A stretch of DNA of 64,000 nucleotides, taken from Terriglobia bacterium. Lineage in GTDB: Bacteria; Acidobacteriota; Terriglobia; Bryobacterales; UBA6623. The stretch's first letter is position 1; each line of letters begins with the position of its first letter. Where the stretch lies: contig VXRL01000060.1 of NCBI GenBank assembly GCA_009838515.1, positions 1-64,000 on the forward strand. The letters run 5' to 3'. The notes beneath the pieces are model-generated. The model worked only from the letters and a program-made list of their open reading frames with translations, did no database searches and was not told the origin of the DNA. Both the position numbers and the translations under genes were made by a program. Below, one piece after another: positions 21,515 to 40,346 of the stretch.

Positions 21515-21785
21515 CAGACTTGCTCCGTTCCGAGTGACTACGCTGCGAAGTCCGGCAGTCGGCGGCGGCCCGCCAAGCTCTGCGCGATGCATACACTTTA
21601 GCGCTTGTACCGGGCGCGTCGCAGCGGCTGGGAAAGACGAACGGAGTCACTGGAGGTCGCGGCCGGCATCTGCTCCCTGAGAGTCGGGCCCGGTTTTCTG
21701 ATACAGTCTTTTTCTAGTTCGGTCCGTCAGGCTCGCGATCGGGCGCCCCTTGGATCGGGCACGGACTGGAAAGTCGAGTCCCGCG

Positions 21786-22283: not shown

Positions 22284-22295
22284 CAGGGTTTGAAC

Positions 22296-22924: not shown

Positions 22925-23827
22925 ATGTTGCGAGTTCTTCTTGGAGCCATTGTCGCCGCGACTTTGTTGTCGGCGGAGACCTATCACGTCTACTATCTTG
23001 GCGGTCAATCGAACATGGACGGGTACGGCAAGATCGGTGAGCTATCCGCTGACCTCCGAGGCGTAAACAATGCCGTGCCCATCTTTCACGGCAATCCCAC
23101 ACCCGACGGCGCGGCAGGCGGAGGCCGGGGCGTTTGGGCCAAGCTGCGCCCGGGACACGGCGCGGGCTTCAGCGCTGACAGCACTGCGAACAAGTACTCG
23201 AACCGGTTCGGCATCGAGGTCACATTCGTCCGCCGATTGAACGAGCTGCGCCCCGGTGAGAAGATTGCGCTGATCAAGTATTCGCGGGGTGGCACCTCGA
23301 TCGATGAAACGGCGGCCCGTTGGTTTGGCAGTTGGGAAGCTGACTTCATTGGGGGCCCCCAACAACATTCCGGCGTCAATCAGTACGACAACTTCTTGAG
23401 CACCCTGAAGAACGCGTTCGCCGAGCGAGATATCGATGGCGACGGGGCAAGCGACGTACTGATTCCCGCTGGAATCTTGTGGATGCAGGGCGAGAGCGAC
23501 GCCGCCACCGCCGCTGTCGCAGGGCGCTACGAACGCAATCTCAAGCGCTTGATTGACCTCATGCGGGCGGCCCTGCGGGTGGACGATCTACCAGTCGTGA
23601 TCGGACGCATCTCCGACTCGGGCGAGGACAAGGACGGCAAGGTTTGGAATCATGGCGATGCCGTGAGGCAGGCCCAACAGGATTTTGTCGACTCGGACAC
23701 AGCTGCCGCCATCGTTACCGAGACTGACATGTACGGCTATTCCGACCCGCATCACTACGACACGAACGGGTACATCGAACTCGGCAAACGCTTCGCCGAA
23801 GCGATTCATTCGATTCGTCCAGAGTAG
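22925..23827 (+). CDS. Secreted SGNH/SASA-family carbohydrate esterase (sialate O-acetylesterase-like)
   Basis: The product has 300 residues, with signal peptide 'MLRVLLGAIVAATLLSAE'. The SGNH block I motif 'YYLGGQSNMDGYG' supplies the catalytic serine, 'KYSRGGTSI' the oxyanion Gly, 'GILWMQGESDA' block III, and 'YSDPHHYDTNGYIELG' the Asp/His pair. The order and spacing match the SASA domain found in sialate O-acetylesterases and acetylxylan esterases, so it should remove acetyl groups from sugars outside the cell. A TACGAT element ends 9 bases before ATG 22925. It is convergent with the large NACHT-like gene, 106 bases apart. Confidence 0.88.
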   Translation: MLRVLLGAIVAATLLSAETYHVYYLGGQSNMDGYGKIGELSADLRGVNNAVPIFHGNPTPDGAAGGGRGVWAKLRPGHGAGFSADSTANKYSNRFGIEVTFVRRLNELRPGEKIALIKYSRGGTSIDETAARWFGSWEADFIGGPQQHSGVNQYDNFLSTLKNAFAERDIDGDGASDVLIPAGILWMQGESDAATAAVAGRYERNLKRLIDLMRAALRVDDLPVVIGRISDSGEDKDGKVWNHGDAVRQAQQDFVDSDTAAAIVTETDMYGYSDPHHYDTNGYIELGKRFAEAIHSIRPE

Positions 23828-23834
23828 CCCCGAT

Positions 23835-23868
23835 GCGGGCACGATCTGGGCTATCGCGCGGGCACGAT
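23835..23868. repeat. 11-bp direct repeat between convergent genes
   Basis: GCGGGCACGAT occurs at 23835-23845 and again at 23858-23868, 23 bases apart, just outside the 3' end of the lower-GC cassette. No third copy was seen at the other cassette boundary. Confidence 0.5.
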
Positions 23869-23933
23869 ATCGCGGTCGATTCTACGCATGCGGAGACTGC
23901 CCGTCTCGGTGACGCACACGCTTCCTCCTGCGC

Positions 23934-26900: not shown

Positions 26901-28034
26901 GGGGAAAGCTGCAACATCGCCGTCCAACATCGTCCCAATGGGATCCGCCGCGACGAGTTCTCGGCGGCACGCGGGTGAATGAGTGGCGATCCAGGCGGCG
27001 ACAGCGCGGAATTGGGGGAGAGTGACGCCGTCGTATCCGGCCATTAACGAATGGATCCGACCGACGGGCAAGCCTTTGCCGACTTCGCCCGCGAGGAATC
27101 GGCCAGCCAGGAATTCTGCGATGGCTGTGTGATAAGAGATGTACTGGCCCGGCGCCGCTTGCTTGAACAATCCACCGTGGAGTACCGCCTTTGCCAGATG
27201 CGGGTCATCCACTTGCGCGCTACTGATGTTGATGCACGATTCCCCGTCAGGCTCAGAGATCGAGTATCCCTCGGCACCGCTAAGGATCTGGATGGCGAAG
27301 AGCCGCCCCGAGGTGTTCAGCTTCTGATCGGCGCTAAAGTGCGAGCGGCCGCCTAGCTGATGCTCCTCGTCGTACTCGGTGACCAGTAGTCCAGAAGCTC
27401 GAAGGTAGACCTCGGTTCGCGTGCGAGGCCAGTCTTGTTTCGCCACGGACTTGGCAAGAAGCTGGAGCGTCAAGGGATTTTGGAGCAATGCGCCGAGGCC
27501 GTACTGCGCAGCTGTTTGGACGAACTTCTCCGGGGCACGAATCAAGTTCAAACCACGAAGGATCTCCATCACATCGTGGTACGTCAGGGGGTTCAGGTGA
27601 AGGATCTTTACCTCCCGGTCCTGAGACACCTCGCTCAGGTGGCGTTGATCGTTGAGGCCCAGCCAGTCCACCGATCTACAGGAGATCCGGAACCTAGGCC
27701 GACCAAGCTGGTCGAGTTTGGATCGAATGTCGTCCAGCGGCGCACGCCGGTCTTGCGAGCCTGCCCGTCGTTCGTCCAGCGCGTCGATGAAGAGGGTCTT
27801 GTTCCGCCATTCAGGACGGACAGCGAAAGCTAGGAAGTCTCGTGCAGTGAGGTAACACCCATCCTTACTCTCTTTCGCAACTCGCCTGAACTCGGTCGAC
27901 TTTCCTGCCCCAGCCTCCCCGAGGAGAACGAACGCACTACATTCCGCGTAGTCTTCGATTGGTCGCTCGACACGATCGTCTCCGGGCTGGCTGGCCTTGG
28001 CCTCGACGACAGTGCGGCCGACCCGGATGTTCAT
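23934..28034 (-). CDS. Giant NACHT/STAND-like ATPase with C-terminal PD-(D/E)XK nuclease-like domain
   Basis: The product has 1366 residues. Walker A is 'GEAGAGKST' (39-47) and Walker B 'FIDALDE' (82-88), followed by 'FRISCRSVDWL' and 'LNPLTYHDVMEIL' in the positions of the sensor and helical segments of NACHT/STAND ATPases. Residues 330-1200 are almost all helical with no named motif, as in HEAT/TPR-type sensor regions. The C-terminus holds a restriction-endonuclease-like signature: Asp1264 in 'RADIRVACPG', Glu1277-x-Lys1279 in 'GVPIEIKRSD' and a following Gln/Tyr segment 'IQSQLIPKY'. ATG 28034 overlaps the stop of the upstream ATPase gene (ATGA). G+C is 92 of 180 bases in 26161-26340, below its neighbours. 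I infer an anti-phage or anti-plasmid effector. That role is not shown by sequence alone. Confidence 0.8.
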   Translation of the reverse strand: MNIRVGRTVVEAKASQPGDDRVERPIEDYAECSAFVLLGEAGAGKSTEFRRVAKESKDGCYLTARDFLAFAVRPEWRNKTLFIDALDERRAGSQDRRAPLDDIRSKLDQLGRPRFRISCRSVDWLGLNDQRHLSEVSQDREVKILHLNPLTYHDVMEILRGLNLIRAPEKFVQTAAQYGLGALLQNPLTLQLLAKSVAKQDWPRTRTEVYLRASGLLVTEYDEEHQLGGRSHFSADQKLNTSGRLFAIQILSGAEGYSISEPDGESCINISSAQVDDPHLAKAVLHGGLFKQAAPGQYISYHTAIAEFLAGRFLAGEVGKGLPVGRIHSLMAGYDGVTLPQFRAVAAWIATHSPACRRELVAADPIGTMLDGDVAAFPVDDRIHVLESINTKSKDNPWFILNVQSTDPRFGSLASADMAKYYARNLSSPSRTDSHQVHTYFLLNVLKHGSPISEMSDAVLRIVEDDTWRPKVRIEALRVLVGLPPSDTRRQEILLNLWHRVDAGEIADYDDEMQGILLRQLYPTVISPGQILDHLRWPKQPNLRGSYQAFWNIFIAKQSTTSQLAVLMDRVADRIPDIYELLQIRMVGTNPFSNFLPSIATRTILEFGDEVMPDRLFRWLAALVYPALSVPLEFQQQVRAWLSSRDDLVGQVLECCIDHCLDQASFVDCLSPIEFYLGLDRTSDYAQICKSAAARVESSEATTVLKERARIFLHTNSAEIAQAVMDPASPDSALEHPEFAGHREEQPVELAWWQDSFEETSSREEYEEFKTHENALRANRCDPATLFRLARVYFGEPPETWGGSPDTRLRASLLNDDDLIEAARFGLRNSVSRQDLPSVGEFAQMFDEGKTHYLALPVLAGIEEIGRESCVQLYSSEGSCKRLALMLHFGVSRMNPDPWQKDSEALGSFRAPAWYTRLARNEPSLVAREFVRSARSRLRSGTGLMQHIDSLYLEPNRSTIAPIVTARILRLFPVRSETAQLDALANLLGLARRHCAAKDFEALVQKKLQSRSMAVAQRVYWLTAAFLSVPNRYRSTFMGVVGSSQPRIRRLADFLRHSFAVQTPQTLLGNLDATDLAYLIKVLGSSYGPDRYGFRAASENDPRAFRARYVDYFMKELIERLGNHTSQVATEELERARTDESLRSWWFWLGGAADTQRAIRREAEFSYSSADAVCRVLAGREPTNSADLAALTAHALAELADIIRNGNTSDWKQYWFRAKHMSEWRPLHENDCRDALLSDLRSRLSDLGIDCQREPNYLDSKRADIRVACPGLGVPIEIKRSDHPRVWSSIQSQLIPKYTQDPECDGCGIYVVFWFGREFLQPPLSGRKPSGPEQMREILIASLEEDERRKIGVVVVDVSRDQASGH

Positions 28035-29284
28035 GGGTGCTCGAACCAGTGCCCCGCTGGAACCGACAGCAGCTCCGACAAGGGCGTGCCGTTCTTGCCA
28101 ACGACAATCGAGCGTAGCGGCGAATGCCGCCGCTCGAACTCTCTAAGGCCGCTAACCTGATCGGGTCGCGATCCACTCTTGACTTCGATTGCGACGAGTG
28201 CAGCTCCGCGCTTCAATACGAAGTCGACCTCGTATGGTGTGTCGCGCCAGTAGTACACTCCGATGTCGCGTGTCGCCGTATTCACCAGATGCGCACCGAC
28301 GGCGCTCTCTACCAGTCGGCCCCAGTGACTCCTGTCTGCACAGGCCTCAGTGAAGTCGTACCCGCTCAACGCCGCGATGATCGCGGTGTTGAGGACATTG
28401 AGTTTCGGGCTGGAGGCCATCCGTCTCTGGCTGCTCTCAGCGAACTTCTCCAAGCCGCAGACAAGGCCGGCCCCTGCGAGCAACTGCAGGTATCGGGCAA
28501 GCGTGGTTGCGTTGCCAGCATCGTGCAGTTGTCCGAGCATCTTGTTGTACGAGAGAATCTGTCCCGAAAATCCGGCACTGAGACGCAACAAGCGCTTGAG
28601 GAGTGCGGGCTTGTGGATTCTCTGCATGGCAAGGACGTCCCGCTCAACCGTCGGTTCGAGGATCGAAGTCTCAACATAGTGGCACCAACGCGGTTGGTCA
28701 GGAAGCAAGTGAGCAGGACCGGGATAGCCGCCGAAGTAGATATACCTTTCTAGGCTGAATTCGAAAGCCCTAGACATTTCCGAGAACGACCAGTGAGTGA
28801 TCGGAATTGTTTCGAACCTGCCCGTCAAGCTCTCGATTAGGCCACCTTGCATTAGCAAAGGGGCAGACCCCAGGATGACAACGCGCAGCGGGCAACCAGC
28901 GTGACGGTCGGCATCCCATAGGCCCTTGACCGTCTCTGACCAGTTCGGGATCCGTTGGATCTCATCAAAGGCAACTACGAGACCGTTGGGAGATTGATGT
29001 GCTACCCGACGAGCGCGCTCCCAAGTACGAATAAGCCATGTCCGGTCTCTGGGGAACGTGGAGAAGTGTGTCTCCTGCGGATACCCCGACAAGTGCCTGA
29101 TCTCGGGACCTTCGACGCCATCCACTGCATAGTAGATGCTCGGCAGACGGGTCCGATGCAACGCTTGCCTGACGAGTGTCGTCTTTCCAGACTGACGCGG
29201 CCCTGACACGACGATGAGCCACCTCGGGTCCTCGTGCAGGCGGCTTAGCAGTACCTCGAGCTCCTGTCGGCAAAACTCCGCCAT
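28031..29284 (-). CDS. AAA ATPase with DUF4143 domain, partner of the NACHT-like nuclease
   Basis: The 417-residue product has a P-loop ATPase domain (Walker A 'GPRQSGKTT' 28-36, Walker B 'LVVAFDEIQ' 102-110, sensor 'VVILGSAPLL'). A middle region with 'YVETSILEPTVERDVL' is typical of DUF4143 proteins. The C-terminal domain carries a PD-(D/E)XK-like pattern: Glu326 in 'GRLVESAVGAHL', Asp354 in 'YEVDFVLKRG', Glu367-x-Lys369 in 'VAIEVKSG'. The family is very common and its function is mostly unknown. It is the first gene of a two-gene operon; its stop overlaps the start of the 1366-residue protein. The start ATG 29284 lies 6 bases after a clear -10, so the mRNA should be leaderless. Confidence 0.88.
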   Translation of the reverse strand: MAEFCRQELEVLLSRLHEDPRWLIVVSGPRQSGKTTLVRQALHRTRLPSIYYAVDGVEGPEIRHLSGYPQETHFSTFPRDRTWLIRTWERARRVAHQSPNGLVVAFDEIQRIPNWSETVKGLWDADRHAGCPLRVVILGSAPLLMQGGLIESLTGRFETIPITHWSFSEMSRAFEFSLERYIYFGGYPGPAHLLPDQPRWCHYVETSILEPTVERDVLAMQRIHKPALLKRLLRLSAGFSGQILSYNKMLGQLHDAGNATTLARYLQLLAGAGLVCGLEKFAESSQRRMASSPKLNVLNTAIIAALSGYDFTEACADRSHWGRLVESAVGAHLVNTATRDIGVYYWRDTPYEVDFVLKRGAALVAIEVKSGSRPDQVSGLREFERRHSPLRSIVVGKNGTPLSELLSVPAGHWFEHP

Positions 29285-29290
29285 TCTTTG

Positions 29291-29319
29291 ATTTTACTAG
29301 ACTGAATGAAATTGTTCAA
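29291..29319 (-). promoter_or_regulatory. Promoter of the two-gene ATPase/nuclease cassette
   Basis: On the minus strand TTGAAC (29319-29314), a 17-base spacer and TAAAAT (29296-29291) form the best promoter in the window. The -10 ends 6 bases before ATG 29284, so the predicted start of transcription coincides with the start codon. Confidence 0.7.
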
Positions 29320-29327
29320 TTTAGTAA
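29294..29327. promoter_or_regulatory. 34-bp dyad operator over the cassette promoter
   Basis: The arms are TTACTA (29294-29299) with TAGTAA (29322-29327), and TGAA (29303-29306) with TTCA (29315-29318). Both arms have identical 3-base gaps, and the middle base of each gap also pairs. It covers the -35 and -10 and so is well placed for repression. It lacks a T-run, and it lies upstream of a start, which argues against a terminator. Confidence 0.65.
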
Positions 29328-29370
29328 TCGCCTCCTGCGGGGCGACTGAGCCAAGAGCAGCCGGGCAACC

Positions 29371-29790
29371 CTACTCGCCGATCACGTGCAGCACCACGGT
29401 CCGCCGATGCGGCCGGCGTCGGTGCTCAAAGAGATAGATTCCCTGCCAGGTACCGAGCGTAGGCGTGCCGTCGACAACCGGTACAGTTAGATGCGTCTGC
29501 GTCAATGCCGTGCGGATGTGCGCTGGCATGTCATCCGGCCCTTCCATCGTGTGCTGGTATAGGCGATTATCTTCGGGCACCAAGCGGGCGAAGAACCTTT
29601 CGAGGTCATGCACGACGTCTGGGTCGGCGTTCTCCTGAATCGTCAGGGACGCGGATGTATGGCAGATGTATACAGTCAGCACCCCAGTCGCGATGTCGAG
29701 CCCCGCCACCCATTCCAAAATCGGTCTGGTGATCTCGGACAAGCCTTTGCCGCTAGTCTCAACGTGCAACTTTCGAACGAATTGTTTCAT
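29371..29790 (-). CDS. YjbQ/UPF0047 family protein
   Basis: The 139-residue product is a complete UPF0047 protein: 'LTVYICHTSASLTIQENADP', 'VVHDLERFFARLVPED', 'YQHTMEGPDDMPAHIRTALT', 'LPVVDGTPTLGTWQGIYLFE'-like text and the C-terminal 'PHRRTVVLHVIGE'. The conserved His and Glu residues and the 'GTWQ' motif are present. Members have been reported to have weak thiamine-phosphate synthase activity, but their main role is unclear. It is cytoplasmic. The gene lies just upstream of the defence-like cassette on the same strand, but the cassette has its own promoter in the 86-base gap. Confidence 0.93.
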   Translation of the reverse strand: MKQFVRKLHVETSGKGLSEITRPILEWVAGLDIATGVLTVYICHTSASLTIQENADPDVVHDLERFFARLVPEDNRLYQHTMEGPDDMPAHIRTALTQTHLTVPVVDGTPTLGTWQGIYLFEHRRRPHRRTVVLHVIGE

Positions 29791-30057: not shown

Positions 30058-30489
30058 CTACCGCTCGGTGGGGTCCCTTCCGTCCCGAGGCGCACCAGTG
30101 CCGGACGACCCCATGAACAGCCGTCTGCCGTCCTCAAACGTCAAATCGCGACCGTTGGCCTTTTGCGTGCCGTCCTTGGCTTGGTAGCCATCGACCATGA
30201 TGACCGTGCCCGGCATCAAGGATGTCTTGGTGAAGCCGCGACGGAACAGGGTGTTTGGCGTGCCGCCCTCGATCATCCATCGCTCGACTTTACCGTCTTC
30301 CATCGTCACGTCGATATGAATCCAGGCGTGCGGGTTGATCCACTCCATCTTGGCCACGGTGCCCTTGAGCTCCACGGGCCGCTTAGCGTCGAACTCGGCT
30401 GAGAACGCATGATGGGCGAGTAGCTGCGCTGCGGCCAATAGGGTGATCAGGATGATGGTGACGCAGATGCTTGCGGCTCCTTTCGACAT
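30058..30489 (-). CDS. DUF6152-like secreted protein (copy 1)
   Basis: The product has 143 residues, with signal peptide 'VTIILITLLAAAQLLA' and mature start 'HHAFSAEFDAKRP'. The conserved core is 'KGTVAKMEWINPHAWIHIDV', 'WMIEGGTPNTLFRRG', 'PGTVIMVDGYQAKDG' and 'LFMGSSGTGAPRDG'. This family is abundant in Acidobacteria beside family A/B proteins and PQQ dehydrogenases; its function is unknown. A GAAGG ribosome site precedes ATG 30489. It follows the family A gene by 117 bases on the same strand. A second copy lies at 34877 on the opposite strand, with the same start 'HHAFSAEFDA' and the same end 'GSSGTGAPRDG'. Confidence 0.85.
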   Translation of the reverse strand: MSKGAASICVTIILITLLAAAQLLAHHAFSAEFDAKRPVELKGTVAKMEWINPHAWIHIDVTMEDGKVERWMIEGGTPNTLFRRGFTKTSLMPGTVIMVDGYQAKDGTQKANGRDLTFEDGRRLFMGSSGTGAPRDGRDPTER

Positions 30490-30606
30490 GTTGCCTTCTC
30501 TCCTCGGTTGCAGTTTACCCTAACGAGCCCGCGATTGGGTCAGCGAGCGATGGCCCGACGCTCGACAATGCGTGCCGTCGACAGAACACCCCCCGTTGCG
30601 GCCGAA

Positions 30607-31605
30607 TTAGGGCAGATTCGATCCGGTGTGAGGCTTGCCCACTTGCTCCGCCGCGCGCGCTCCCTCCAGCATCGTGAACATGCTGTAGTTCCCCTCGTGG
30701 CAGGCGTACTCGAACATCGGCTGGTCCGTCTTCTTCATCGGTATCGCTGCCGACCACGGCTGTTCGAACGAGTCGGGGTCGTCGATCGTGTACTGGTATA
30801 CGACCCGGTCTGGCGCCACCCGCGTGAACCGTTCAGTCAGCACCATGTTCGGCCCGGTTCCCCGATAGGAGGTCTTGTCGCTGAAATTGCGTGACTCCAC
30901 CACTAGCGTGTCCCCGTCCCAGCGGCCGCGCGCATCGCCGCGCCACTGTCGCATGTGGGCTGGCAGGTGGTCCCGCCCGTCCAGCGGTACGATGCGGGCG
31001 TCGTTGACCATCTCGATCAGCAACACCGCGTAGCCCGGTGTCTGGAAGATATGGACGTTGTTGTTGTACGCGCTCGGCGTGTAAGGTGGCCCAGCGTTGA
31101 ACCCCAGGATGCAGCGTTCGGCAACGCCCCGGTCCTCCGGCCCGTGTGGCTCTCTTGCCCGGGCCGCGCGGATCGCCGCGTAGCGCTTCCGAGCTGGTTC
31201 GGTCATGGCCGGGATCCTGCCATTCGGCGGATCCACGATCAGAGAAGTGCGCTTGTCTTCGGTAAGCTCGTTTCCGTAGTCCCACCAGAACTGGTTGTAA
31301 GCGTTGCGCACGTCCTGCTCGGCCGAGATGCCATCGGAAGCTCGGCGGTCCTTGTTGCGGCGCCCCAGTTCTGCGACGCGAAACTCGGCCGCCTCCTCGT
31401 TGCTGAAGACCTCCTGCTCGCCGAGCTGTGCGGGTCGCTCCAGCGGCGTGATTGTCCGAAAGTCCCACACTCCGCGCAAATCGGGCGCGCCCCACGCGGT
31501 GCGCGGGGGAGTCCACTCCTGCTGGTCCCCCGCGGCGTCAGCAGCCGCCAGAGGAGCGGCAGCAAGGCCTGTGATCAATGCCAGACCCAAGAGCCGATGT
31601 GTCAT
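30607..31605 (-). CDS. Secreted acidobacterial protein, family A (copy 1)
   Basis: The product has 332 residues, with signal peptide 'LLGLALITGLAAAPLAAADA'. Landmarks shared with the copy at 35324 are 'WGAPDLRGVWDFRTITPLER', 'LIVDPPNGRIPAMT', 'ERCILGFNAGPP', 'IFQTPGYAVLL', 'RIVPLDGRDHLP', 'GRWDGDTLVVES', 'GPNMVLTERFTR', 'YTIDDPDSFEQPW' and 'YACHEGNYSM'. The C-terminal half ('GRWxGxTLVV', 'YTIDDP') also resembles family B, so A and B probably share a fold. Function unknown; conserved His and Asp residues hint at binding of a small ligand. AGGAGG lies 6-8 bases before ATG 31605. It is 15 bases downstream of family B, so the two are co-transcribed. Confidence 0.85.
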   Translation of the reverse strand: MTHRLLGLALITGLAAAPLAAADAAGDQQEWTPPRTAWGAPDLRGVWDFRTITPLERPAQLGEQEVFSNEEAAEFRVAELGRRNKDRRASDGISAEQDVRNAYNQFWWDYGNELTEDKRTSLIVDPPNGRIPAMTEPARKRYAAIRAARAREPHGPEDRGVAERCILGFNAGPPYTPSAYNNNVHIFQTPGYAVLLIEMVNDARIVPLDGRDHLPAHMRQWRGDARGRWDGDTLVVESRNFSDKTSYRGTGPNMVLTERFTRVAPDRVVYQYTIDDPDSFEQPWSAAIPMKKTDQPMFEYACHEGNYSMFTMLEGARAAEQVGKPHTGSNLP

Positions 31606-31620
31606 GGCGAACCTCCTAGC

Positions 31621-32460
31621 TCATTCCGTTTCCTTCTTGCGCAAGTGCCCGTACATCATCTCCTCGACGAACTCCACGCACTTGAATTCGAGCAGCTGCA
31701 TGTTCTCGTCCATGCGCCGGTATAGAGGGAGCTTGATCTTCCACGGCCGCGTGAACACGCTCTCGTCTTCGATGGTGGCTTCGTACAAGAGGTGGTCCGG
31801 GCCAATGGGCGTGTACCGCTCGACTACCTTCAGCGACTCGGAGTGGAAATTTCCGGCGCTGTCGAACCACGTGTCGGCGACATGGTTGGTGACATCCACA
31901 ACCAGCGTCTGCCCTTCCCAGCGACCCCGGGAGTGCCCCATCCACGCGTCGCCAGGATGCTCGAAGTCCGGCCGGTTCATGTAGACCACGCGAGACGCGC
32001 TGGCGAACTCGTACGCGATCAAGATGTGGTCCGGCGTTTGGACGATCTGAAACGGGAAGGGCATGTAGGTGGCCCGCGGCACGCCTGGCATGTAGCACTT
32101 GACGACCGGATCGAGCTTGAGCCAGTCCGCCTTGTTCTGTAGCCGCTTCTCGAGCGCCCAGGGCTGGTAGGGGATCTCGCCGCCCTCGACGATGCCCAAA
32201 CCGCCGGGAATCGCGCCCAGAGCCCCCATGTTGACAGCCGGTCCTGCTTCGGCCGAGTGGCCCTCGACATTCCAGTTGGCTGAGCCAAGGGCTTGCCAGA
32301 TGCCGTTCAGGTTCGGGTTCCCGTCGGGCGTGAGAGGGGCCTGGTAGTCTTGCGCGAGGCCGACCGCTGGCGCAAGCGCCAGACAGAAGCAGAGAGCCGC
32401 CGCGGTCACCGGTATGCGGGCAGACAAGGATCGGGCGTGGGATCGAATCAAGTGCAACAC
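31621..32460 (-). CDS. Secreted acidobacterial protein, family B (copy 1)
   Basis: The product has 279 residues from GTG 32460, with signal peptide ending 'AAALCFCLALAPAVGLAQ'. Family landmarks are 'LTPDGNPNLNGIWQALGSA', 'GEIPYQPWALEK', 'KCYMPGVPRATYMPFPFQIV', 'GRWEGQTLVVDVT', 'DTWFDSAGNFHSESL', 'YEATIEDESVFTRPWKI' and 'LPLYRRM'. All recur in the copy at 36440. The frame is open 15 codons further to GTG 32505. GTG 32460 was preferred because TAGACT ends 7 bases before it. The function is unknown; the exported location and gene neighbours suggest a role alongside the PQQ dehydrogenase. Confidence 0.82.
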   Translation of the reverse strand: MLHLIRSHARSLSARIPVTAAALCFCLALAPAVGLAQDYQAPLTPDGNPNLNGIWQALGSANWNVEGHSAEAGPAVNMGALGAIPGGLGIVEGGEIPYQPWALEKRLQNKADWLKLDPVVKCYMPGVPRATYMPFPFQIVQTPDHILIAYEFASASRVVYMNRPDFEHPGDAWMGHSRGRWEGQTLVVDVTNHVADTWFDSAGNFHSESLKVVERYTPIGPDHLLYEATIEDESVFTRPWKIKLPLYRRMDENMQLLEFKCVEFVEEMMYGHLRKKETE

Positions 32461-32467
32461 TTTGAAA

Positions 32468-32473
32468 AGTCTA
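32468..32473 (-). promoter_or_regulatory. -10-like element (TAGACT) of the family B gene
   Basis: TAGACT ends 7 bases before GTG 32460. It agrees with the leaderless arrangement seen elsewhere in the window. No -35 was identified. Confidence 0.35.
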
Positions 32474-32647
32474 CTACCGATTCGGGCCACAGCGAAACCG
32501 GGCACCGCAGGATTCAGTCGGTTCCTCGCTTCATACGGGCCTTGACCGGGTTCCGGCCGTCTCCTTCCGGCCGAGCAGGCTTGAGGCCGGTCTGCTGATG
32601 AACCGGCGGCACGGTGCCGGATTTCACTCGATCCGGCCGGCCTGCGC

Positions 32648-32653
32648 TATACT
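32648..32653 (+). promoter_or_regulatory. -10 element (TATACT) of the PQQ dehydrogenase gene
   Basis: TATACT lies between the two possible starts (32598 and 32685) and supports the downstream one, with a leader of about 25 bases. Confidence 0.45.
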
Positions 32654-32684
32654 CTCTGCCCGGCAGCGGCAGCCAGAACGAGCA

Positions 32685-34799
32685 GTGGACTTATCGTCTA
32701 GCCTCTTCGTCCTCAAGCGCGGATTCGCCCGTCTTGTGATGATGCTCGCATGCTGCGTCGCACTGGCCTACGCGCAGAGCCCGCCGAACGAACCATCCGC
32801 TGGGCGCGTCGACGACGCGCGGATCGACAGGATCGACGACAACGACCCCGGACAGTGGCTAGCATACGGACGCGGGTACAGCCAGCACCGCTTTTCCCCG
32901 CTCAAGCAGATCAGCCGTCAGACCGTTCGCAACCTCGGCTTGAACTGGACGCGCAAGATCGAAGTCCGCCATCGCTTGCAGTCGTCTCCGATCGTGGTGG
33001 ACGGGGTCCTGTATTTCACCGACAGCTGGAGCGTGGTCTCGGCAGTCGACGCCGATACGGGAGAGACGATCTGGACGTTTGATCCCGAGACCCGCCGCAC
33101 CCGCGCTCGCTGGTCGTGCTGCGGCGGACCGATCAATCGAGGCGTGGCGGTGTACCGGGACCGGGTCTACACGGCTACGTTTGATGCCCGCTTGGTGGCG
33201 ATCGATGCCCGGACGGGAGAGAAGGTGTGGGATGTGGACACGGCCGACTACCCGTCCCGGGTCCCATACACCATTTCTGGCGCTCCGCTCGCCGCCGCGG
33301 GCAAGGTCTTCATCGGTAACAGCGGCTCCGAGTGGGATCACCGCGGCTACGTCACCGCCTACAACGCCGAGACAGGTGAGAAAGAATGGCGTTTCTTCAC
33401 CGTGCCTGGCGATCCGTCCAAGCCGTTCGAGCATTCCGAGATGGAGATGGCTGCCGAGACTTGGAACGGCGAATGGTGGAAGCTTGGCGGCGGCGGCACG
33501 GTGTGGAACAGCATGACCTACGACGCCGACTTGCACACGGTCTACATCGGCGTGGGCAACGGCACGCCGTGGTCGCGCGAGATTCGCTCGCCCGGCGGCG
33601 GCGACAACCTCTTCCTAGCCTCGATCGTGGCGTTGGATCCCGAGACCGGCCGGATGAAGTGGTACTACCAGACCACGCCCGGTGACAACTGGGACTACAC
33701 GGCGACGCAGGACATCGTCCTAGCTGACATGGAGGTCGACGGCGTAGACCGCAAGGTGCTCATGCAGGCACCCAAGAACGGGTTCTTCTACGTGTTGGAC
33801 CGCAGCGATGGCGAACTCCTCAGGGCGCATCCCTACGGCGCGATGACGTGGGCTACCCACGTGGACATGGAGACGGGAAGGCCGGTCGAGAATCCCGATG
33901 TCGTGTGGGAGGAGAAGCCGCAGTGGATCCTGCCGGGAAACACTGGCGCGCACAACTGGGAACCGATGTCCTTTAACGCCGCCAAGGGCCTGATGTACAT
34001 CCCGACGCACGACTCCCCGTTCTTCTTTGCCCTCCCGAAGGACTATCGCGAGACCGGCGTCTACCGCCCGCGCGAGCGGACCATGAACCTAGGCGTTGCG
34101 ATGGGTGCCGACCGCACGAAGCTCATCGAAGAAGCAGGGGAGCGGCCCGAGGCCAAGGGGTTTCTCAAGGCGTTCAACCCGCTCACCGGGGAGACCGTCT
34201 GGAAAGTGCAGAACAAGACCGCGCGGATCGGAGGCGTGCTTTCGACCGCTGGCGGGCTTGTCTTCCAAGGCGACGGAAGCGGGACGTTATCGGCCTACAA
34301 CAGCGAGTCCGGAGAGCGGCTCTGGGAGTTCGACGCCTACGGTTCGATCATCGCGCCTCCCGTCACCTACCAAGTCGGCAATACGCAATACGTGGCAGTA
34401 GTAGTCGGCGCCAGCTTCGCCTATATCGATTTCGGCAAGCTGCTCGTATTCTCGCTCGGCGCGGACCATGCCCTGGCGGAACCCCCGCTGCGCGACAGGT
34501 CGATTCCCACGCAACCGCCCATGACCGCGTCGACGGAGGAGCTGGCCCAAGGGGAGGAGCTCTACCATCAGTTCTGCGCCTCGTGCCATGGCTACGCAGC
34601 GCGCGGCTACCGCAACGCCGACCTCCGCCTAATGAGCCCGGCCATCCACGATTCCTTCCAGAAAGTCGTGCGGGAAGGCTTGCTGCTGGACCTGGGCATG
34701 GACAGTTTCGGCAATGACCTCAGCGAGACGGAGACGGAACTGATCCGGCAATACATCATCTCTCGCGCCAATATCGACCGCGAAGCGACCGGTCAATAG
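32685..34799 (+). CDS. PQQ-dependent alcohol dehydrogenase fused to cytochrome c (quinohemoprotein)
   Basis: The product has 704 residues from GTG 32685, with signal peptide 'LVMMLACCVALAYA'. The N-terminal propeller has 'WLAYGRGYSQHRFSPLKQI', tryptophan-docking repeats ('VDADTGETIWTFDP', 'IDARTGEKVWDVDT', 'YNAETGEKEWRF'), the vicinal disulfide 'SCCGGP' and catalytic Asp in 'PGDNWDYTATQD'. The C-terminus is a class I cytochrome c ('FCASCHGYAA'). It oxidises alcohols or aldehydes in the periplasm and passes electrons to its own heme. The residue two after the catalytic Asp-Tyr is Thr, whereas lanthanide-type enzymes have Asp there, so calcium is more likely. The frame opens at 32598, but a promoter lies in between. 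Two paralogous three-gene sets flank it. Confidence 0.9.
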   Translation: MDLSSSLFVLKRGFARLVMMLACCVALAYAQSPPNEPSAGRVDDARIDRIDDNDPGQWLAYGRGYSQHRFSPLKQISRQTVRNLGLNWTRKIEVRHRLQSSPIVVDGVLYFTDSWSVVSAVDADTGETIWTFDPETRRTRARWSCCGGPINRGVAVYRDRVYTATFDARLVAIDARTGEKVWDVDTADYPSRVPYTISGAPLAAAGKVFIGNSGSEWDHRGYVTAYNAETGEKEWRFFTVPGDPSKPFEHSEMEMAAETWNGEWWKLGGGGTVWNSMTYDADLHTVYIGVGNGTPWSREIRSPGGGDNLFLASIVALDPETGRMKWYYQTTPGDNWDYTATQDIVLADMEVDGVDRKVLMQAPKNGFFYVLDRSDGELLRAHPYGAMTWATHVDMETGRPVENPDVVWEEKPQWILPGNTGAHNWEPMSFNAAKGLMYIPTHDSPFFFALPKDYRETGVYRPRERTMNLGVAMGADRTKLIEEAGERPEAKGFLKAFNPLTGETVWKVQNKTARIGGVLSTAGGLVFQGDGSGTLSAYNSESGERLWEFDAYGSIIAPPVTYQVGNTQYVAVVVGASFAYIDFGKLLVFSLGADHALAEPPLRDRSIPTQPPMTASTEELAQGEELYHQFCASCHGYAARGYRNADLRLMSPAIHDSFQKVVREGLLLDLGMDSFGNDLSETETELIRQYIISRANIDREATGQ

Positions 34800-34833
34800 C
34801 GAGATCCGCAGCCACGGCCGATCGCAGGTCGCA

Positions 34834-34839
34834 TATACT
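34834..34839 (+). promoter_or_regulatory. -10 element (TATACT) of the second DUF6152 gene
   Basis: TATACT is followed by a leader of about 30 bases that contains a GAGGAAAGG ribosome site, so this is a normal leadered transcript. Confidence 0.5.
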
Positions 34840-34876
34840 CTTAGGCGTCCGCTTTGGATAGAACGAGGAAAGGTCG

Positions 34877-35323
34877 ATGATTCGCAACACTGTGTCCGCG
34901 CTGCTCTTGACCGCTCTGCTGGCGTTCGTTCCGTGCGCCTACGCGCACCACGCGTTCTCCGCCGAGTTCGATGCGAACGCCCCGATCAAGGTGATCGGCA
35001 AGGTGGTCAAGGTCGAGTGGATCAACCCCCACGCATGGGTTCACGTGATGATGGAGCGTGAAGACGGCGAGACGCTGACGTGGGAACTCGAGGCCGGCAC
35101 GCCCAATACGCTCCTGCGCCGCGGGCTCACCAAGACACTGTTGGTGCCTGGGACGGCGGTGACGGTGCGCGGCTACCAGAGCAAGGACAGGCTGTGCGAT
35201 CCGCATTGCAAGGGCAGCGGTCGCGACATCACGTTCCAAGACGGGCGCAAGCTCTTCATGGGCTCATCCGGGACCGGCGCGCCCCGCGACGGTGCCGACC
35301 CCAGCGAACCGAAGCGGCCCTGA
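34877..35323 (+). CDS. DUF6152-like secreted protein (copy 2)
   Basis: The product has 148 residues, with signal peptide 'VSALLLTALLAFVPCAYA' and mature start 'HHAFSAEFDANAP'. The core 'GKVVKVEWINPHAWVHVMME', 'WELEAGTPNTLLRRGLTK', 'PGTAVTVRGYQSKD' and 'KLFMGSSGTGAPRDG' is closely related to the copy at 30058. It differs by a short insert with two cysteines ('LCDPHCKGSG'), which could bind a metal or form a disulfide. GAGGAAAGG precedes ATG 34877. It follows the PQQ dehydrogenase on the same strand by 77 bases and ends directly against the convergent family A copy. Confidence 0.87.
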   Translation: MIRNTVSALLLTALLAFVPCAYAHHAFSAEFDANAPIKVIGKVVKVEWINPHAWVHVMMEREDGETLTWELEAGTPNTLLRRGLTKTLLVPGTAVTVRGYQSKDRLCDPHCKGSGRDITFQDGRKLFMGSSGTGAPRDGADPSEPKRP

Positions 35324-36421
35324 TCAATTCCCATCGTCCGGGGTAGCTGCCCCTTCGCCTTCCACGGTTTCCTTGGCGGCCTTGGCCGCCTTTGCCCCGC
35401 CATACCAAGAAGCCAGCCAGTCGTCGCTGCTTTGGCCCTTCTCTTCCCGCGCGCGGGCTCCGGAGAGCATCAGTGTCATGGCGCGATTGCCTTCGTGACA
35501 AGCGTATTCCAGCAGCGGGTCGGAGCTGTTTTTCATCTCCACTGCCACCGACCAAGGCGCTTCGAACGATTCTGGGTCATCGATGGTGTATTCGTAGAGC
35601 AGCGTTTCCTGCGATGTCCTAGTGAAGCGTTCGGTGAGCACCATGTTCGGGCCCGATCCGCGGAAGTTGGTGTGCTTGGTGAAATTCTTGGTCGTCACGA
35701 CCAGCGTGTTGCCTTCCCAGCGGCCGCGCGAGTCGCCCTTCCAGAAGCGCATGTTCTCCGGGACGTGGTCCCTTCCGTCGAGCGGGATGATGCGGTGGTC
35801 GTTGATCATCTCGTTGAGAATGGCGACGTACGTCGGTGTTTGGAAGATCTCCGCGAAATTGTTGTAAGCGCCCGGGTTCATGGGCGGGCCGGAGTTGAAG
35901 CCCACGATGCAGCGTTCCAGGGGATTCCGATCCTCGGGGCCGGACGGGACGCCGCCCCAGCGGGCATAGCGCTCGGCCGAGCGCAGCTTGGCCAAGTCGG
36001 TCAAGGGGGGAATCCGCCCGTTCGGCGGGTCGACCACTAGCGAGGTGCGCATTGTCCCGGTCATCTTCTCGCCTCGGTCCAGCCAAAAGGCGTTGTAGCC
36101 GACATCCACATCCCCCTGTCCTTGGACCGGGTCTTCATTGCGCCGGGCGACTCTCGCGTCAAGCGTGCGCTGTTCCCAAGCCTCGGCTTCTTCGGGCGTC
36201 AGGAACTCCTTGTCGGCCAGTTCCTTCGGGCGCTCGAACGGTGTGATGGAACGGAAGTCCCACGTGCCTTGCAGGTCCGGTGCGCCCCAGCTCGTGGTCG
36301 GCGGGTCGGCAGCAAAGACCGCCACTGGCAGCGCCGCCAGCAACAGCGCGACGGTCGGCAACGCGCAGGTGCGCAGCATCCAAGTAATGGAACGCAGTGT
36401 GTGATCGCTGGCTTGGGTCAT
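35324..36421 (-). CDS. Secreted acidobacterial protein, family A (copy 2)
   Basis: The product has 365 residues, with signal peptide 'ALPTVALLLAALPVAVFA' and mature start 'ADPPTTSWGAPDLQGTWDF'. It keeps every landmark of copy 1: 'SLVVDPPNGRIPPLTD', 'LERCIVGFNSGPPMNPGAYN', 'IFQTPTYVAIL', 'IIPLDGRDHVPENMR', 'GRWEGNTLVVTT', 'GPNMVLTERFTR', 'YTIDDPESFEAPW' and 'YACHEGNRAM'. The C-terminus is about 30 residues longer and Lys/Ala-rich ('GAKAAKAAKETVEGEG'). The 3' end abuts the convergent DUF6152 gene without spacing. GAGGAG lies before ATG 36421. It is 18 bases downstream of family B copy 2. Confidence 0.85.
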   Translation of the reverse strand: MTQASDHTLRSITWMLRTCALPTVALLLAALPVAVFAADPPTTSWGAPDLQGTWDFRSITPFERPKELADKEFLTPEEAEAWEQRTLDARVARRNEDPVQGQGDVDVGYNAFWLDRGEKMTGTMRTSLVVDPPNGRIPPLTDLAKLRSAERYARWGGVPSGPEDRNPLERCIVGFNSGPPMNPGAYNNFAEIFQTPTYVAILNEMINDHRIIPLDGRDHVPENMRFWKGDSRGRWEGNTLVVTTKNFTKHTNFRGSGPNMVLTERFTRTSQETLLYEYTIDDPESFEAPWSVAVEMKNSSDPLLEYACHEGNRAMTLMLSGARAREEKGQSSDDWLASWYGGAKAAKAAKETVEGEGAATPDDGN

Positions 36422-36439
36422 GGCTCGTCTCCTCTTCTT

Positions 36440-37261
36440 CTAATCCTCGGGCTCGGCCTCCGGTGCCCCGGCATCCCGGTAGAGGTGTCCGTAGGTAGCG
36501 CCCTCGGCGAACGGCACGCACTTGAACTCGAGAATCTGCGCGTTGGGCTCGAGGCGCCGGTAGAGCGGCATGCTGATCTTCCACGGACGGGTGAACACCT
36601 TGGGGTCGTCGATAGTGGCCTCGTAGCGGAGCGTATTCGGACCCGTGGGCGTGTACCGTTCCTCCACGCGCAGTTCCTCGCTGTGGAAGTTACCCGAACT
36701 GTCGAACCAGGTGTCGGGCACTTGCGCCGTCACGTCAACGACCAGCGTCTCTCCTTCCCAGCGGCCCAGCGAATAGCCCATCCACGACGGGGCCAAGGCT
36801 TCGCTTCCGGGGCGGTCCAAGCGCACGACCCGGCTGTTGCTGCCGAACTCATAGGCAAACAGGATCTTTGTCGGCGTCTGGACGATCTGGAACGGAAGCG
36901 GCATGTAGGTGGCGCGAGGGATGCCCGGCATGAAGCACTTCACCGCTGGATCGAGCTTTAGCCAGTTCTCCAGGTTCTTCGCGCGCTGCTCGGCGGCCCA
37001 CGGCTGGTACGGGATCGTGCCGCCTTCGACCACGCTGAGCCCGGCCGGAATTGCGCCGAGCGCGCCGAGTGCCTCGACCGGTCCGTGGCGTGCCGCGTGG
37101 TCTTCCAAGTCCCAGTGGGCCGAGCCCATGGCCTGCCAGATGCCGTTGAGATCGGGGTTGCCGTCAGGTGTGCGTGCAGCGGCGTACTGGGCGGACGCTG
37201 GCGCACCGCAAAGTAGCGCCATAGCAGCCATCAAGGCTGTGGACAAGGTTCTGCGCAACAT
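36440..37261 (-). CDS. Secreted acidobacterial protein, family B (copy 2)
   Basis: The product has 273 residues, with signal peptide 'STALMAAMALLCGAPASAQ'. It shares with copy 1 'RTPDGNPDLNGIWQAMGSAH', 'GTIPYQPWAAEQ', 'KCFMPGIPRATYMPLPFQIV', 'GRWEGETLVVDVT', 'DTWFDSSGNFHSEEL', 'YEATIDDPKVFTRPWKI' and 'MPLYRRLE'. GTG 37294 is in frame but ATG 37261 has GGAG upstream and puts the signal peptide at the N-terminus. A TATACT element lies about 78 bases upstream. It precedes family A copy 2 by 18 bases, the same B-then-A order and spacing as in copy 1. Confidence 0.84.
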   Translation of the reverse strand: MLRRTLSTALMAAMALLCGAPASAQYAAARTPDGNPDLNGIWQAMGSAHWDLEDHAARHGPVEALGALGAIPAGLSVVEGGTIPYQPWAAEQRAKNLENWLKLDPAVKCFMPGIPRATYMPLPFQIVQTPTKILFAYEFGSNSRVVRLDRPGSEALAPSWMGYSLGRWEGETLVVDVTAQVPDTWFDSSGNFHSEELRVEERYTPTGPNTLRYEATIDDPKVFTRPWKISMPLYRRLEPNAQILEFKCVPFAEGATYGHLYRDAGAPEAEPED

Positions 37262-37483: not shown

Positions 37484-40174
37484 TCAGAAAGACAGCCGCA
37501 TAGCGAGATTGAATGTGCGGCCATCGTTGAGAGTGTTGGTGATCTGCCCGAAATTGCCGCCGGTGAGTTCGCTGCCCGGGAACGCGAACTGCGGCGTGTT
37601 GAAAAGGTTGATCGACTCCACGCGAAACATCAGAGTGCTCTCGCCGGCGATCTTCCAGCTGCGCGACAGCGACAGGTTGAGATTCTGGATGCCGTCCTTT
37701 CGGAACACGTTCCTTCCAATGTTCCCCCGCTTCTGGCCAGCCTGGACATAGCTGAAGGCCGACCGCGGCATCATTTTCCTAGACGTGTCCGGGTGGTCCA
37801 TCCTGCGGCCGATCAGCGAAGGGTCGAGCAGGTTGGGACGGTCGCCCATTGCGCCGTCGACGTTGCCGAATCCGGGGCCGTCCGAGCCGGCGTACAGAAG
37901 GAACGGAGTCCCTGTCTTGAGCAGCAGCACGGAGGACATCGACCAGCCGCCCAGGGCCTTGTTCCAGACGCTGCCCGCCGAGCCGACCGAAGGGGTGAGA
38001 TAGCTGACCCGGGCCATCGCGGCGTGGGGCTGGTCGAAGTCGCTGAGGGACTTGACGTCTCCGTGGACGTCGTCCTCGGTCTGGCTGCGGCCGTAGAACG
38101 CGTCGCGCGAGCTGGCATTGCTGGCGTAGTGTGCCCCGAGGTCGATGGCCTTGCTCAGCCAGTAGGAGAAATCCATCGTCAGGCCGCCGACATCGCGCAG
38201 CCCGACCGTGGCCTTGGCGGCATCGAAGTATGCCCGCGAGCCGTTGAGGATGCGGCGGACGTCGAAATAGCGCTGGTCAGGGCGCCGGTCGTTTATCGTC
38301 CTAACCGTCGTCGGAATGCCCGGAACGTTGCGGGCGCGGTTCAGGACCCAGCCGGCCAGGAGCCTGTGCGAGCGGCTCCCGAGATAGCCCAGTTCTGCGA
38401 ATGCGCCGCGCGAGTTGGCGACCACCCAGCTGAGATTGTAGTGGTGGGAGTAGGGGGCGACCAAGTCGGGATCAAGCTGGACAATCGTGCTGCGGGCCGT
38501 GGCACCGTCGAAGTTGATGCCCGCCAACGGGTCCAGCAAGTTTGGGGCCACTACGTTTACACGGACGTTACCCGGCGGGTTGAACCGTTCTTGCGTGTAG
38601 GTGGCGGTGAAGATCTCGCCGAAATGAGTGCCGTACGCGCCTCGCAGGACGCCCAGTTTGGTGCGGTAGGCGAAACCGAAGCGCGGTGCGAAATTGTTGC
38701 AGTCGCAACGAAACGGAACGTCCGAGAACGCATTGACCTCGACCGGCCGGGTGGTGGGCTCGAATCGCAGTCCGAAATCGAGCGTTAAGTCCCGAGTAGC
38801 CTTCCAGGTGTCCCCGACAAAGTACTGCATCCGCCAACGCCGAAAGCCCCGATGGGTCATGCCAATCGACTGCGTGATCCGGCTTGGCGTGCCAAGGCGC
38901 AGATTCGTCATCATGTCTCGCCCGAAGTTGGCGGTAAACATCACCATTCCCAAGTGCCCGCTACTTTCGATCCCGTTAAGGTGCTCGCGGGTCAGTTCGA
39001 AGCCGGCCACGATTCGGTGGGCGCCGCGAGTCGTGCTGACAGATCCGGCGTAGCGGAAGAAATTCTGCACCCGGTCATAGGGAACACTGCTCGTGCCGCC
39101 GAGTGACTGCAACTGCCTGCCCATGAAGACCAGCGGGCCGAAGGCCGTTTCGTCCTGCACGATGAGCGAAGTCGTGCGGCGGAAACCTGCCGAGAAATCG
39201 CTGGATGTCTGGGGCGACCAAGCTCGATTCCAGGTGAAGCTGCCGTCGTGGGACCCGGTGGTCGTGTTGGGATTCTGGCCTTGGACGAGCTGGAAGGCGT
39301 CTACGTGCTGCTTGCGAAAACGGTAGTTCAGGGCCAGCCTGTCGTTATCGCTTAGAGGGAGGTCGTAGCGTCCGCCGGCGATATCGTTGTCGATCACTTG
39401 CGGCGCGTTGGTGTTGTGCGCGCGAGGATTGATGTCGGGTCGGTTGGGCGCCTCGTCTGGGTATGACCCCAGGATCTCTGAGACGACCGCCCGCAAATCG
39501 GGATCCGTGGCGAGCGGAACCCGCTCCTCGGGCAGGGGCATCAAGACGTTGCCGTTGACGTTGCCGCGATTTCTTTGGTGGTTTAGTTCGACCGAGAATG
39601 CAGACTCGCCCGGTAGCGGCAGGGTCATTTGCACGCCGTAGTCGTTAAAGTTCGCAGGCTGGACCGCTCCGACTTGAAAGAACGATCGAGCCGAGAAGAC
39701 GCTGTTGCCGTGAGTTTCGTGGAAGGAGCCGTGGAAAGCGCGCCCCGTGGCCGGGCGAAGATGCATCGGCCGGCTGGCCGGGTTGCCAAACTCGGTGCCG
39801 AAGTAGCCCCTCGCCGCATCGAACTCGCGCACGATCGTCGCGGTGGTGCCCATGCGGATGTTGATTTCTTTCAGGACGTTGTTGTCGATCAGCGTCAGCT
39901 GGACGTTTTCGTTGCGGCGGCTCTCTCCCGATTCACTGTCGACCTCGCCGAGCAGGTTGAGCTCGGTACGCTCGCGGTTGCCCTCGGATTCCTCGCTGAG
40001 GGGCGCATCCTGAGTCTCGGCAGCAGCCTCTGCGCGCAGTTCGGCGGCCGGCTCAGACGAGCCGGATTCGCCAGATTCTCCGCTGAGACCCTGCCCTGCC
40101 AGTGCAAGCCCGGCCACAACGGCGACTCCGGTCGCTTGCCGGAACGAGGGCGCAATCCTGATTTTGGGCCGCAT
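37484..40174 (-). CDS. TonB-dependent receptor-like outer membrane protein, acidobacterial type
   Basis: The product has 896 residues from ATG 40174, with a signal-like N-terminus ('ATGVAVVAGLALAGQGLSGE'). It shows the acidobacterial receptor pattern: plug-like 'NVLKEINIRMGTTATIVREF', 'GTEFGNPASRPMHLRPATGR' and a long barrel with alternating aromatic strands. Late conserved text is 'RVSYLTPS', 'LGGWSMSSVLLLKTGTPFLL', 'FRVESINLFNTPQFAFPG' and a C-terminal aromatic 'FNLAMRLSF'. The usual N-terminal carboxypeptidase-regulatory-like domain is missing; a Glu/Ser-rich segment (residues about 30-75) takes its place. It should import a large substrate through the outer membrane. In-frame codons continue to 40252, but a signal peptide fits 40174. 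Confidence 0.83.
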   Translation of the reverse strand: MRPKIRIAPSFRQATGVAVVAGLALAGQGLSGESGESGSSEPAAELRAEAAAETQDAPLSEESEGNRERTELNLLGEVDSESGESRRNENVQLTLIDNNVLKEINIRMGTTATIVREFDAARGYFGTEFGNPASRPMHLRPATGRAFHGSFHETHGNSVFSARSFFQVGAVQPANFNDYGVQMTLPLPGESAFSVELNHQRNRGNVNGNVLMPLPEERVPLATDPDLRAVVSEILGSYPDEAPNRPDINPRAHNTNAPQVIDNDIAGGRYDLPLSDNDRLALNYRFRKQHVDAFQLVQGQNPNTTTGSHDGSFTWNRAWSPQTSSDFSAGFRRTTSLIVQDETAFGPLVFMGRQLQSLGGTSSVPYDRVQNFFRYAGSVSTTRGAHRIVAGFELTREHLNGIESSGHLGMVMFTANFGRDMMTNLRLGTPSRITQSIGMTHRGFRRWRMQYFVGDTWKATRDLTLDFGLRFEPTTRPVEVNAFSDVPFRCDCNNFAPRFGFAYRTKLGVLRGAYGTHFGEIFTATYTQERFNPPGNVRVNVVAPNLLDPLAGINFDGATARSTIVQLDPDLVAPYSHHYNLSWVVANSRGAFAELGYLGSRSHRLLAGWVLNRARNVPGIPTTVRTINDRRPDQRYFDVRRILNGSRAYFDAAKATVGLRDVGGLTMDFSYWLSKAIDLGAHYASNASSRDAFYGRSQTEDDVHGDVKSLSDFDQPHAAMARVSYLTPSVGSAGSVWNKALGGWSMSSVLLLKTGTPFLLYAGSDGPGFGNVDGAMGDRPNLLDPSLIGRRMDHPDTSRKMMPRSAFSYVQAGQKRGNIGRNVFRKDGIQNLNLSLSRSWKIAGESTLMFRVESINLFNTPQFAFPGSELTGGNFGQITNTLNDGRTFNLAMRLSF

Positions 40175-40346
40175 AGGAACTCGGATGCCCCGCAGTTCGC
40201 CCGCGGGCGCTCGGCTGGGGTCCGCCACGGGATCACCCACCCCAGCAGCCAAGTACTCAAGTACTAGAGTATCGCGAACGTTAACGAATGTATAGGAGTC
40301 GTTCGGCGGCTCCGGCGGATGACTGCCTCTGCGCGAAACTAAAAGG

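Follow-up and report, generated by a model that had tools for sequence, protein, structure and literature searches.

Why do three genes for predicted exported proteins occur twice around the gene of a quinohaemoprotein, and what could their products do together? The locus belongs to a Terriglobia bacterium (assembly GCA_009838515.1), and the stretch analysed, referred to here as the window, comprises positions 1–64,000 of the forward strand of contig VXRL01000060.1 (64,000 nucleotides).

Organization of the locus

In each set the genes are named B, A and D (DUF6152), with the number of the copy, and the quinohaemoprotein gene between the sets is named Q (Table 1). The arrangement described in the original prediction, two three-gene sets around Q, was reproduced in its gene calls, strands and B-to-A gaps of 15 bases (copy 1) and 18 bases (copy 2), both of which contain a purine-rich stretch resembling a ribosome-binding site. 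D2 and A2 are convergent, their stop codons abutting at 35323/35324. The assignment of D1 and D2 to DUF6152 was confirmed by PF19649 scores of 115.8 and 100.7 bits, against a cut-off of 27. The source genome harbors four B-A-DUF6152 cassettes, two in the window, a third on contig C45 and a fourth on contig C85, and also solo A genes.

Table 1. Genes of the two sets and of their surroundings in the window
Feature	Position	Strand	Evidence
Cytochrome c'-like lipoprotein, CTACH haem motif	21014..21592	-	PF01322 E 0.0027, below cut-off
DUF6644 membrane protein, pair member 1	21750..22283	+	PF20349 28.3 bits, cut-off 27
DUF6644 membrane protein, pair member 2	22290..22772	+	PF20349 E 1e-22
Intervening genes: SASA esterase, large NACHT/STAND-like NTPase, AAA_14/DUF4143 ATPase, YjbQ	22925..29790		
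D1, DUF6152 copy 1	30058..30489	-	PF19649 E 1e-33; predicted signal peptide; predicted OB fold
A1, secreted family-A protein, copy 1	30607..31605	-	56% identity to A2
B1, secreted family-B protein, copy 1	31621..32460	-	64% identity to B2
Q, PQQ-dependent alcohol dehydrogenase with C-terminal cytochrome c domain	32598..34799	+	TIGR03075, PF13442
D2, DUF6152 copy 2, inverted	34877..35323	+	PF19649 E 5e-29
A2, secreted family-A protein, copy 2	35324..36421	-	Predicted helices and eight-stranded meander
B2, secreted family-B protein, copy 2	36440..37261	-	64% identity to B1; tree
Outer-membrane beta-barrel protein, TonB-receptor-like	37484..40252	-	PF25183 E 1e-98

A recurrent cassette and its partners

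The proposed conserved linkage of B, A and DUF6152 was borne out in neighbourhoods whose genes were called from codon usage: a DUF6152 gene lies within 2.5 kb of 48 of the 63 B genes found in 12 genomes, where 1.2 would be expected. To judge from gene order, the three genes form a recurrent cassette and travel together. Cassette maps were obtained in Acidobacteria and Gammaproteobacteria. On plasmids of Novosphingobium and Sphingobium, DUF6152 has A/B-like genes and DUF6644 pairs as neighbours. In L094:13848-14894, DUF6152 and a B-like domain are fused in a single gene, and Azospirillum has DUF6152 and DUF6644 without A or B, next to housekeeping genes. The cassette is scattered widely and has probably spread horizontally. 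The neighbours of the A/B family are catabolically varied and include tannase, amidase, CoA-transferase and esterases.

Frequently the cassette also includes a DUF6644 pair, together with genes for a cytochrome c'-like protein and an outer-membrane receptor. DUF6152 is found within 1.5 kb of 8 of the 17 DUF6644 loci (0.22 expected), and DUF6644 is a stronger partner of the cassette than the PQQ enzymes, a point that had been overlooked. In relatives the DUF6644 pair and the cytochrome c'-like gene adjoin the cassette; in the window they lie 7 kb away, the pair being parted from D1 by intervening genes that are absent there in the relatives L043 and L040. The first window DUF6644 gene is 86% identical to the one beside the cassette in L043, and the second is 76% identical to L043:4161-4652. 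Homologues of the cytochrome c'-like gene stand beside the cassette in L043, L040, L142, L151 and L127; the window protein retains the haem motif and scores 19.1 bits against PF01322, below the cut-off of 26.5. A homologue of the outer-membrane protein adjoins the copy-1 cassette in L043.

The identification of DUF6644 as CopD (PF05425) was considered and rejected as too weak, the best member reaching 21.1 bits (E 4e-4; cut-off 32.1) and a window gene 15.5 bits (E 0.09, in a search of its genome).

Predicted properties of the encoded proteins

Export of the A, B and DUF6152 proteins, as originally proposed, is supported by prediction. The predicted mature N-terminus of D1 is HHAFSAEFD, and all 80 distinct DUF6152 sequences carry HH at the signal-peptidase site predicted by the -3/-1 rule. 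The residue preceding HH is A in 75 of the 80, and G, S or T in the others. A third invariant His is located at mature position 28/29, in a PH motif (80/80) that is retained even where the Asn before it is changed. The three His are invariant although the sequences share only about 30% identity. The AlphaFold2 model of D1 (pLDDT 86, pTM 0.79) has neither an LPMO nor a CopC fold but a predicted OB fold, whose matches in the PDB are generic, with SSB and LysRS at the top. DUF6152 appears to represent a novel type of exported protein with an inferred capacity for metal binding.

A and B are homologous to each other (BLASTP E about 1e-19 across the C-terminal half; hhalign probability 99.9% over 163 columns), in agreement with the suggestion that they come from an older duplication. 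Neither has a match in Pfam, NCBIfam or the PDB; a Pfam scan of 130 A members gave scattered chance matches only, and a PDB sequence search with the A, B, D and DUF6644 profiles returned nothing usable. Family A is large, with 93 matches in one genome. The AlphaFold2 model of A2 (pLDDT 89, pTM 0.86) combines helices with an eight-stranded meander resembling the calycin/FABP barrel. The nearest known folds are FABP/CRABP-type lipid binders, although the Foldseek match is marginal (best E 2.7e-4; TM 0.53 by target and 0.26 by query), and the barrels predicted for A and B resemble calycins weakly.

Proposed function of the module

The reading we tentatively favour is that of an envelope module in which an N-terminal-His metal-binding protein acts with a membrane partner and ligand-binding proteins. 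Mature D would be an OB barrel in which the amino group and side chain of the N-terminal His, helped by His2 and/or His29, bind a transition metal, copper being the likeliest. The DUF6644 pair would be its inner-membrane partner, providing a path for metal or electrons, and A and B would be secreted, calycin-like binders of a small hydrophobic ligand or docking partners of D. Where the cassette belongs to the copy-2 lineage, the quinohaemoprotein may be an added redox partner, not the core of the pathway. The sub-threshold CopD match of one DUF6644 member leans towards this proposal. Weighing against it, the cassettes looked at hold no metal-handling gene of known function, the Azospirillum DUF6152-DUF6644 pair sits among housekeeping genes, and the fold matches are marginal for A and generic for D.

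It could also be argued that the module is metal-free, with A and B as lipocalin-like carriers, D as an OB-fold lid or adaptor, and the His-His pair kept for folding, processing or docking. The lipid-binder-like fold of A and the catabolic variety of the neighbours agree with this explanation, which is nevertheless somewhat unlikely, as it does not readily account for three invariant His, one of them always at position 1, at such low identity.

The link to PQQ dehydrogenases

The original prediction was an uncharacterised periplasmic oxidation pathway. In the form considered here, Q would oxidize an alcohol or sugar, and A, B and DUF6152 would bind the substrate or product or pass electrons. 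Q is a PQQ alcohol dehydrogenase by its TIGR03075 score (562 bits, cut-off 480), and its C-terminal haem domain matches PF13442 above the cut-off (E 1.6e-8); against the acido-empty-quinoprotein group A (TIGR04528) it scores 381 bits, below the cut-off of 650. Q adjoins both sets in the window, as it does in L034, a relative with 93% identity. Within the clade of copy 2, a quinohaemoprotein lies directly upstream of B in L035-L037 and L126 and is divergent from the cassette in L038, and these genomes are rich in PQQ enzymes. However, the enzymes in question differ in build, the cytochrome domain being C-terminal in Q and N-terminal in L035, L037 and L126, and to judge from their sequences they are not orthologous. 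A PQQ enzyme is missing from the vicinity of most cassettes: with one genome per genus, a PQQ alcohol dehydrogenase is found within 2.5 kb of 5 of 44 B genes (1.06 expected). PQQ genes are not commoner near A (4/115 neighbours) than far from it (3/115), and the copy-1 cassette of L043 lies directly by the outer-membrane protein, without a PQQ gene. The link is weak in general and shows only in the copy-2 clade, and the pathway is improbable as an explanation of the cassette.

Very unlikely is a reading in which DUF6152 would be a new OB-fold secreted N-terminal-His copper oxidase or monooxygenase, its substrate being a hydrophobic ligand that A/B present and its electrons arriving via DUF6644 and cytochrome c' or, in the copy-2 clade, via the PQQ quinohaemoprotein; the arrangement would be analogous to that of PQQ-driven LPMOs, with unrelated proteins.

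Two lineages side by side

In the A and B trees copy 1 clusters with a second genome of the Bryobacterales, the nearest relatives of B1 being L034 and L043, and copy 2 falls in a clade with cassettes of Holophagales, Vicinamibacteraceae and Gammaproteobacteria. The trees indicate that two separate old cassette lineages ended up adjacent in the window. Their closeness and the 56–64% identity between copies (63% for D1/D2) might suggest that the sets arose by tandem duplication in place, DUF6152 being inverted in the process, but this is virtually untenable, since a single clade of copies 1 and 2 is rejected by the AU test both in B (p = 0.003) and in A (p = 4e-5), the D tree agrees with their separation, and the inverted D is an old trait shared by part of the copy-2 clade (L035-L037 and L126). 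Under the models used local duplication is refuted; only if the model were wrong, or gene conversion strong, could it be rescued. The outcome that the original prediction had named as contrary to it, trees placing the copies as unrelated acquisitions, is largely borne out.

Comparison with known systems

No mention of DUF6152 or DUF6644 was found in a literature of 5.39 million papers, and the conserved gene set, together with a testable metal-site prediction, provides a first handle on A/B, DUF6152 and DUF6644. If D binds copper, a predicted OB-fold class would be added to the exported N-terminal-His metalloproteins.

Metal chelation by the N-terminal His of an exported protein is known, and the same logic led to DUF4198, DUF6702 and the anglerases (PMC12537917). 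DUF6152 shares with these signal-strapping metalloproteins (DUF4198, DUF6702, Ang-1/Ang-2) a conserved His exposed by cleavage of the signal peptide, and they are likewise small, uncharacterised envelope proteins of bacteria. It is not named in the main text of that paper, belongs to another Pfam family with another predicted fold, and differs in its two consecutive invariant His and its multi-gene partners. A predicted His as mature residue 1 is also common to DUF6152 and the histidine-brace proteins (LPMO, CopC).

CopC/CopD and YcnI/YcnJ resemble the module in that an exported N-terminal-His protein is encoded beside a small multi-pass membrane protein. However, CopC is cupredoxin-like, whereas an OB fold is predicted for DUF6152, the similarity between DUF6644 and CopD is marginal, and copper on the DUF6152 side is presumed. 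The Coprinopsis LPMO fed by a PQQ dehydrogenase (PMC5960967) offers a parallel for the copy-2 clade only, where an N-terminal-His protein is encoded near a quinohaemoprotein, whereas DUF6152 matches LPMOs neither in fold nor in sequence. Finally, the predicted eight-stranded up-and-down barrel of A recalls the calycins (lipocalins and fatty-acid-binding proteins), from which A differs in sequence, with no similarity detected, and in its large N-terminal helical part and two conserved Cys.

A conserved B-A-DUF6152 unit

The features of the original prediction are all present in the sequence of the window, at the positions that it gives, including the spacing of 15 and 18 bases between B and A and the inversion of D2, the DUF6152 (PF19649) gene of copy 2, whose stop codon abuts that of A2. 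The proposed homology of A and B also holds (BLASTP E about 1e-19; hhalign 99.9%). Elsewhere in the same genome (5.84 Mb, 99 contigs), contigs C45 and C85 each carry a further B-A-DUF6152 cassette, and there are solo A genes.

Features in and around the two gene sets of the window
Feature	Position	Strand	Remark
Cytochrome c'-like gene and DUF6644 pair	21014-22772		About 7 kb of unrelated genes before D1
DUF6644 pair	21750-22283, 22290-22772	+	
NTPase and neighbouring ATPase	23934-29284		Protein of 1366 aa, weakly matching NACHT/STAND NTPases, beside an AAA_14/DUF4143 ATPase
Copy 1 (B1-A1-D1)	30058-32460	-	
Q, PQQ alcohol dehydrogenase	32598-34799	+	C-terminal cytochrome c domain
Copy 2 (B2, A2, D2)	34877-37261	B2, A2 -; D2 +	
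Outer-membrane protein	37484-40252	-	TonB-receptor-like beta-barrel

When more than 60 B loci are mapped, the genes most often stand in the order B-A-D. In 12 Acidobacteriota genomes a DUF6152 gene lies within 2.5 kb of 48 of the 63 B genes, against 1.2 expected (all expected counts assume genes placed at random in the genome), which supports the predicted conservation of the linkage. B itself is patchy, being found in 12 of 149 genomes sampled across Acidobacteriota, with up to 16 copies. One gene of a gammaproteobacterial bin (L094:13848-14894) encodes a natural DUF6152 fusion to a B-like domain, a direct tie between two of the three families. Linkage and fusion together strongly support the view that B, A and D would work together. 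A is also fused behind two VOC/glyoxalase domains, on contig C45 of the same genome (L028:11823-13562) and at L105:4240-5922; long A frames of this kind are also present in several further genomes, all from a single genus.

A, B and D are predicted to be exported. The AlphaFold2 model of A (130 sequences, pLDDT 89, pTM 0.86) has a helical N-terminal part followed by an eight-stranded antiparallel meander, and its best PDB fold matches, all marginal, are the SAHS, CRABP and FABP barrels. B would share this fold, given its homology to A, and the marginal match suggests that A and B may bind a ligand.

Origin of the two copies

Searching 84,980 species genomes with an A profile yielded at least 587 confirmed relatives, of which the best 80 loci were used, mostly from Acidobacteria and Gammaproteobacteria, together with 40 more regions from B-carrying genomes. 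The relatives come mostly from metagenome bins, which may carry a wrong taxonomy, and their gene calls are automatic. One contig, L071, is labelled Klebsiella pneumoniae and has an A-B pair of the type seen in marine Acidobacteria/Gammaproteobacteria; it is probably a mislabelled bin.

In the trees of B, D and A, copy 1 clusters with L043, from another Bryobacterales MAG, and copy 2 with L035, L037, L038, L039, L041, L126 and L134, a clade that includes Holophagales, Vicinamibacteraceae, Gammaproteobacteria and others (in L039 the stretch examined contains no D). AU tests rejected trees in which both copies and their orthologues form a single clade (B, p = 0.003; A, p = 4e-5). A local duplication as the origin of the two copies is rejected by the trees and these tests. 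The double arrangement recurs in L034, about 92-95% identical. L043 has a single cassette, flanked directly by the outer-membrane protein on one side and the DUF6644 pair on the other. In the window lineage, therefore, Q and cassette 2 sit between the outer-membrane protein and cassette 1; they were either inserted in this lineage or lost in L043. The NTPase, located between the DUF6644 pair and D1, is absent from that place in L043, and with its neighbouring ATPase it is possibly a defence island.

Genomic partners of the cassette

The clearest partner beyond B-A-D is the pair of DUF6644 membrane proteins: DUF6152 lies within 1.5 kb of 8 of 17 DUF6644 loci, with an over-sampled genus represented by one genome, against 0.22 expected. 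This linkage supports DUF6644 as a candidate membrane partner of the cassette, and there is only a hint of kinship with CopD. The cassette with the DUF6644 pair is often accompanied by genes for a cytochrome c'-like protein and an outer-membrane receptor. DUF6152 also adjoins A/B-like genes on alphaproteobacterial plasmids (Novosphingobium, Sphingobium, Croceibacterium), those of Novosphingobium and Sphingobium carrying DUF6644 pairs as well. In Azospirillum brasilense (L170:5932-6821), DUF6152 and DUF6644 occur without A/B, directly upstream of an aspartate carbamoyltransferase-like gene, as a possible minimal unit.

The association with PQQ enzymes that had been predicted is weak in general. 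Quinoproteins recur beside the cassette in the copy-2 clade; among Pfam matches PQQ is equally represented in genes within 1.5 kb of A, B or D and in those at least 5 kb away (4/115 against 3/115). A PQQ alcohol dehydrogenase lies within 2.5 kb of at least 12 of 63 B genes (at least 1.5 expected) or, with one genome per genus, of at least 5 of 44 (at least 1.06 expected), two of these five being the window's own; these counts rest on the about 150 matches listed, which makes both counts and expectation slightly low. The cytochrome domain is C-terminal in Q and N-terminal in the quinoproteins of L035, L037 and L126; cassettes of this clade have thus recruited two or more distinct enzymes as neighbours. 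The tie, a pattern noticed post hoc and confined to the copy-2 clade, is suggestive. A striking co-expansion is seen in one genome of 4.8 Mb (G077), with 93 family-A and 54 PQQ alcohol dehydrogenase matches. The cytochrome c'-like and quinohaemoprotein neighbours suggest that the module may have a redox role.

The DUF6152 protein

The mature form of D (35 sequences, pLDDT 86, pTM 0.79) is predicted to run strand-strand-strand-helix-strand-strand, the order of the OB-fold, and OB-fold proteins fill its PDB fold list, none with E below 0.001. In 80 distinct D sequences, His-His occupies residues 1-2 past the predicted signal-peptidase site, and a third His, that of a PH motif, lies at position 28/29; it stays the same where the Asn ahead of it varies. 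One more D reading frame was excluded from these 80 because the stretch searched contained no HH. This is the pattern that an exported N-terminal-His metal site would be expected to show, and D may thus bind metal. DUF6152 is not named in the main text of PMC12537917; the discovery of metalloproteins through an exported N-terminal His is an established approach (PMC12537917).
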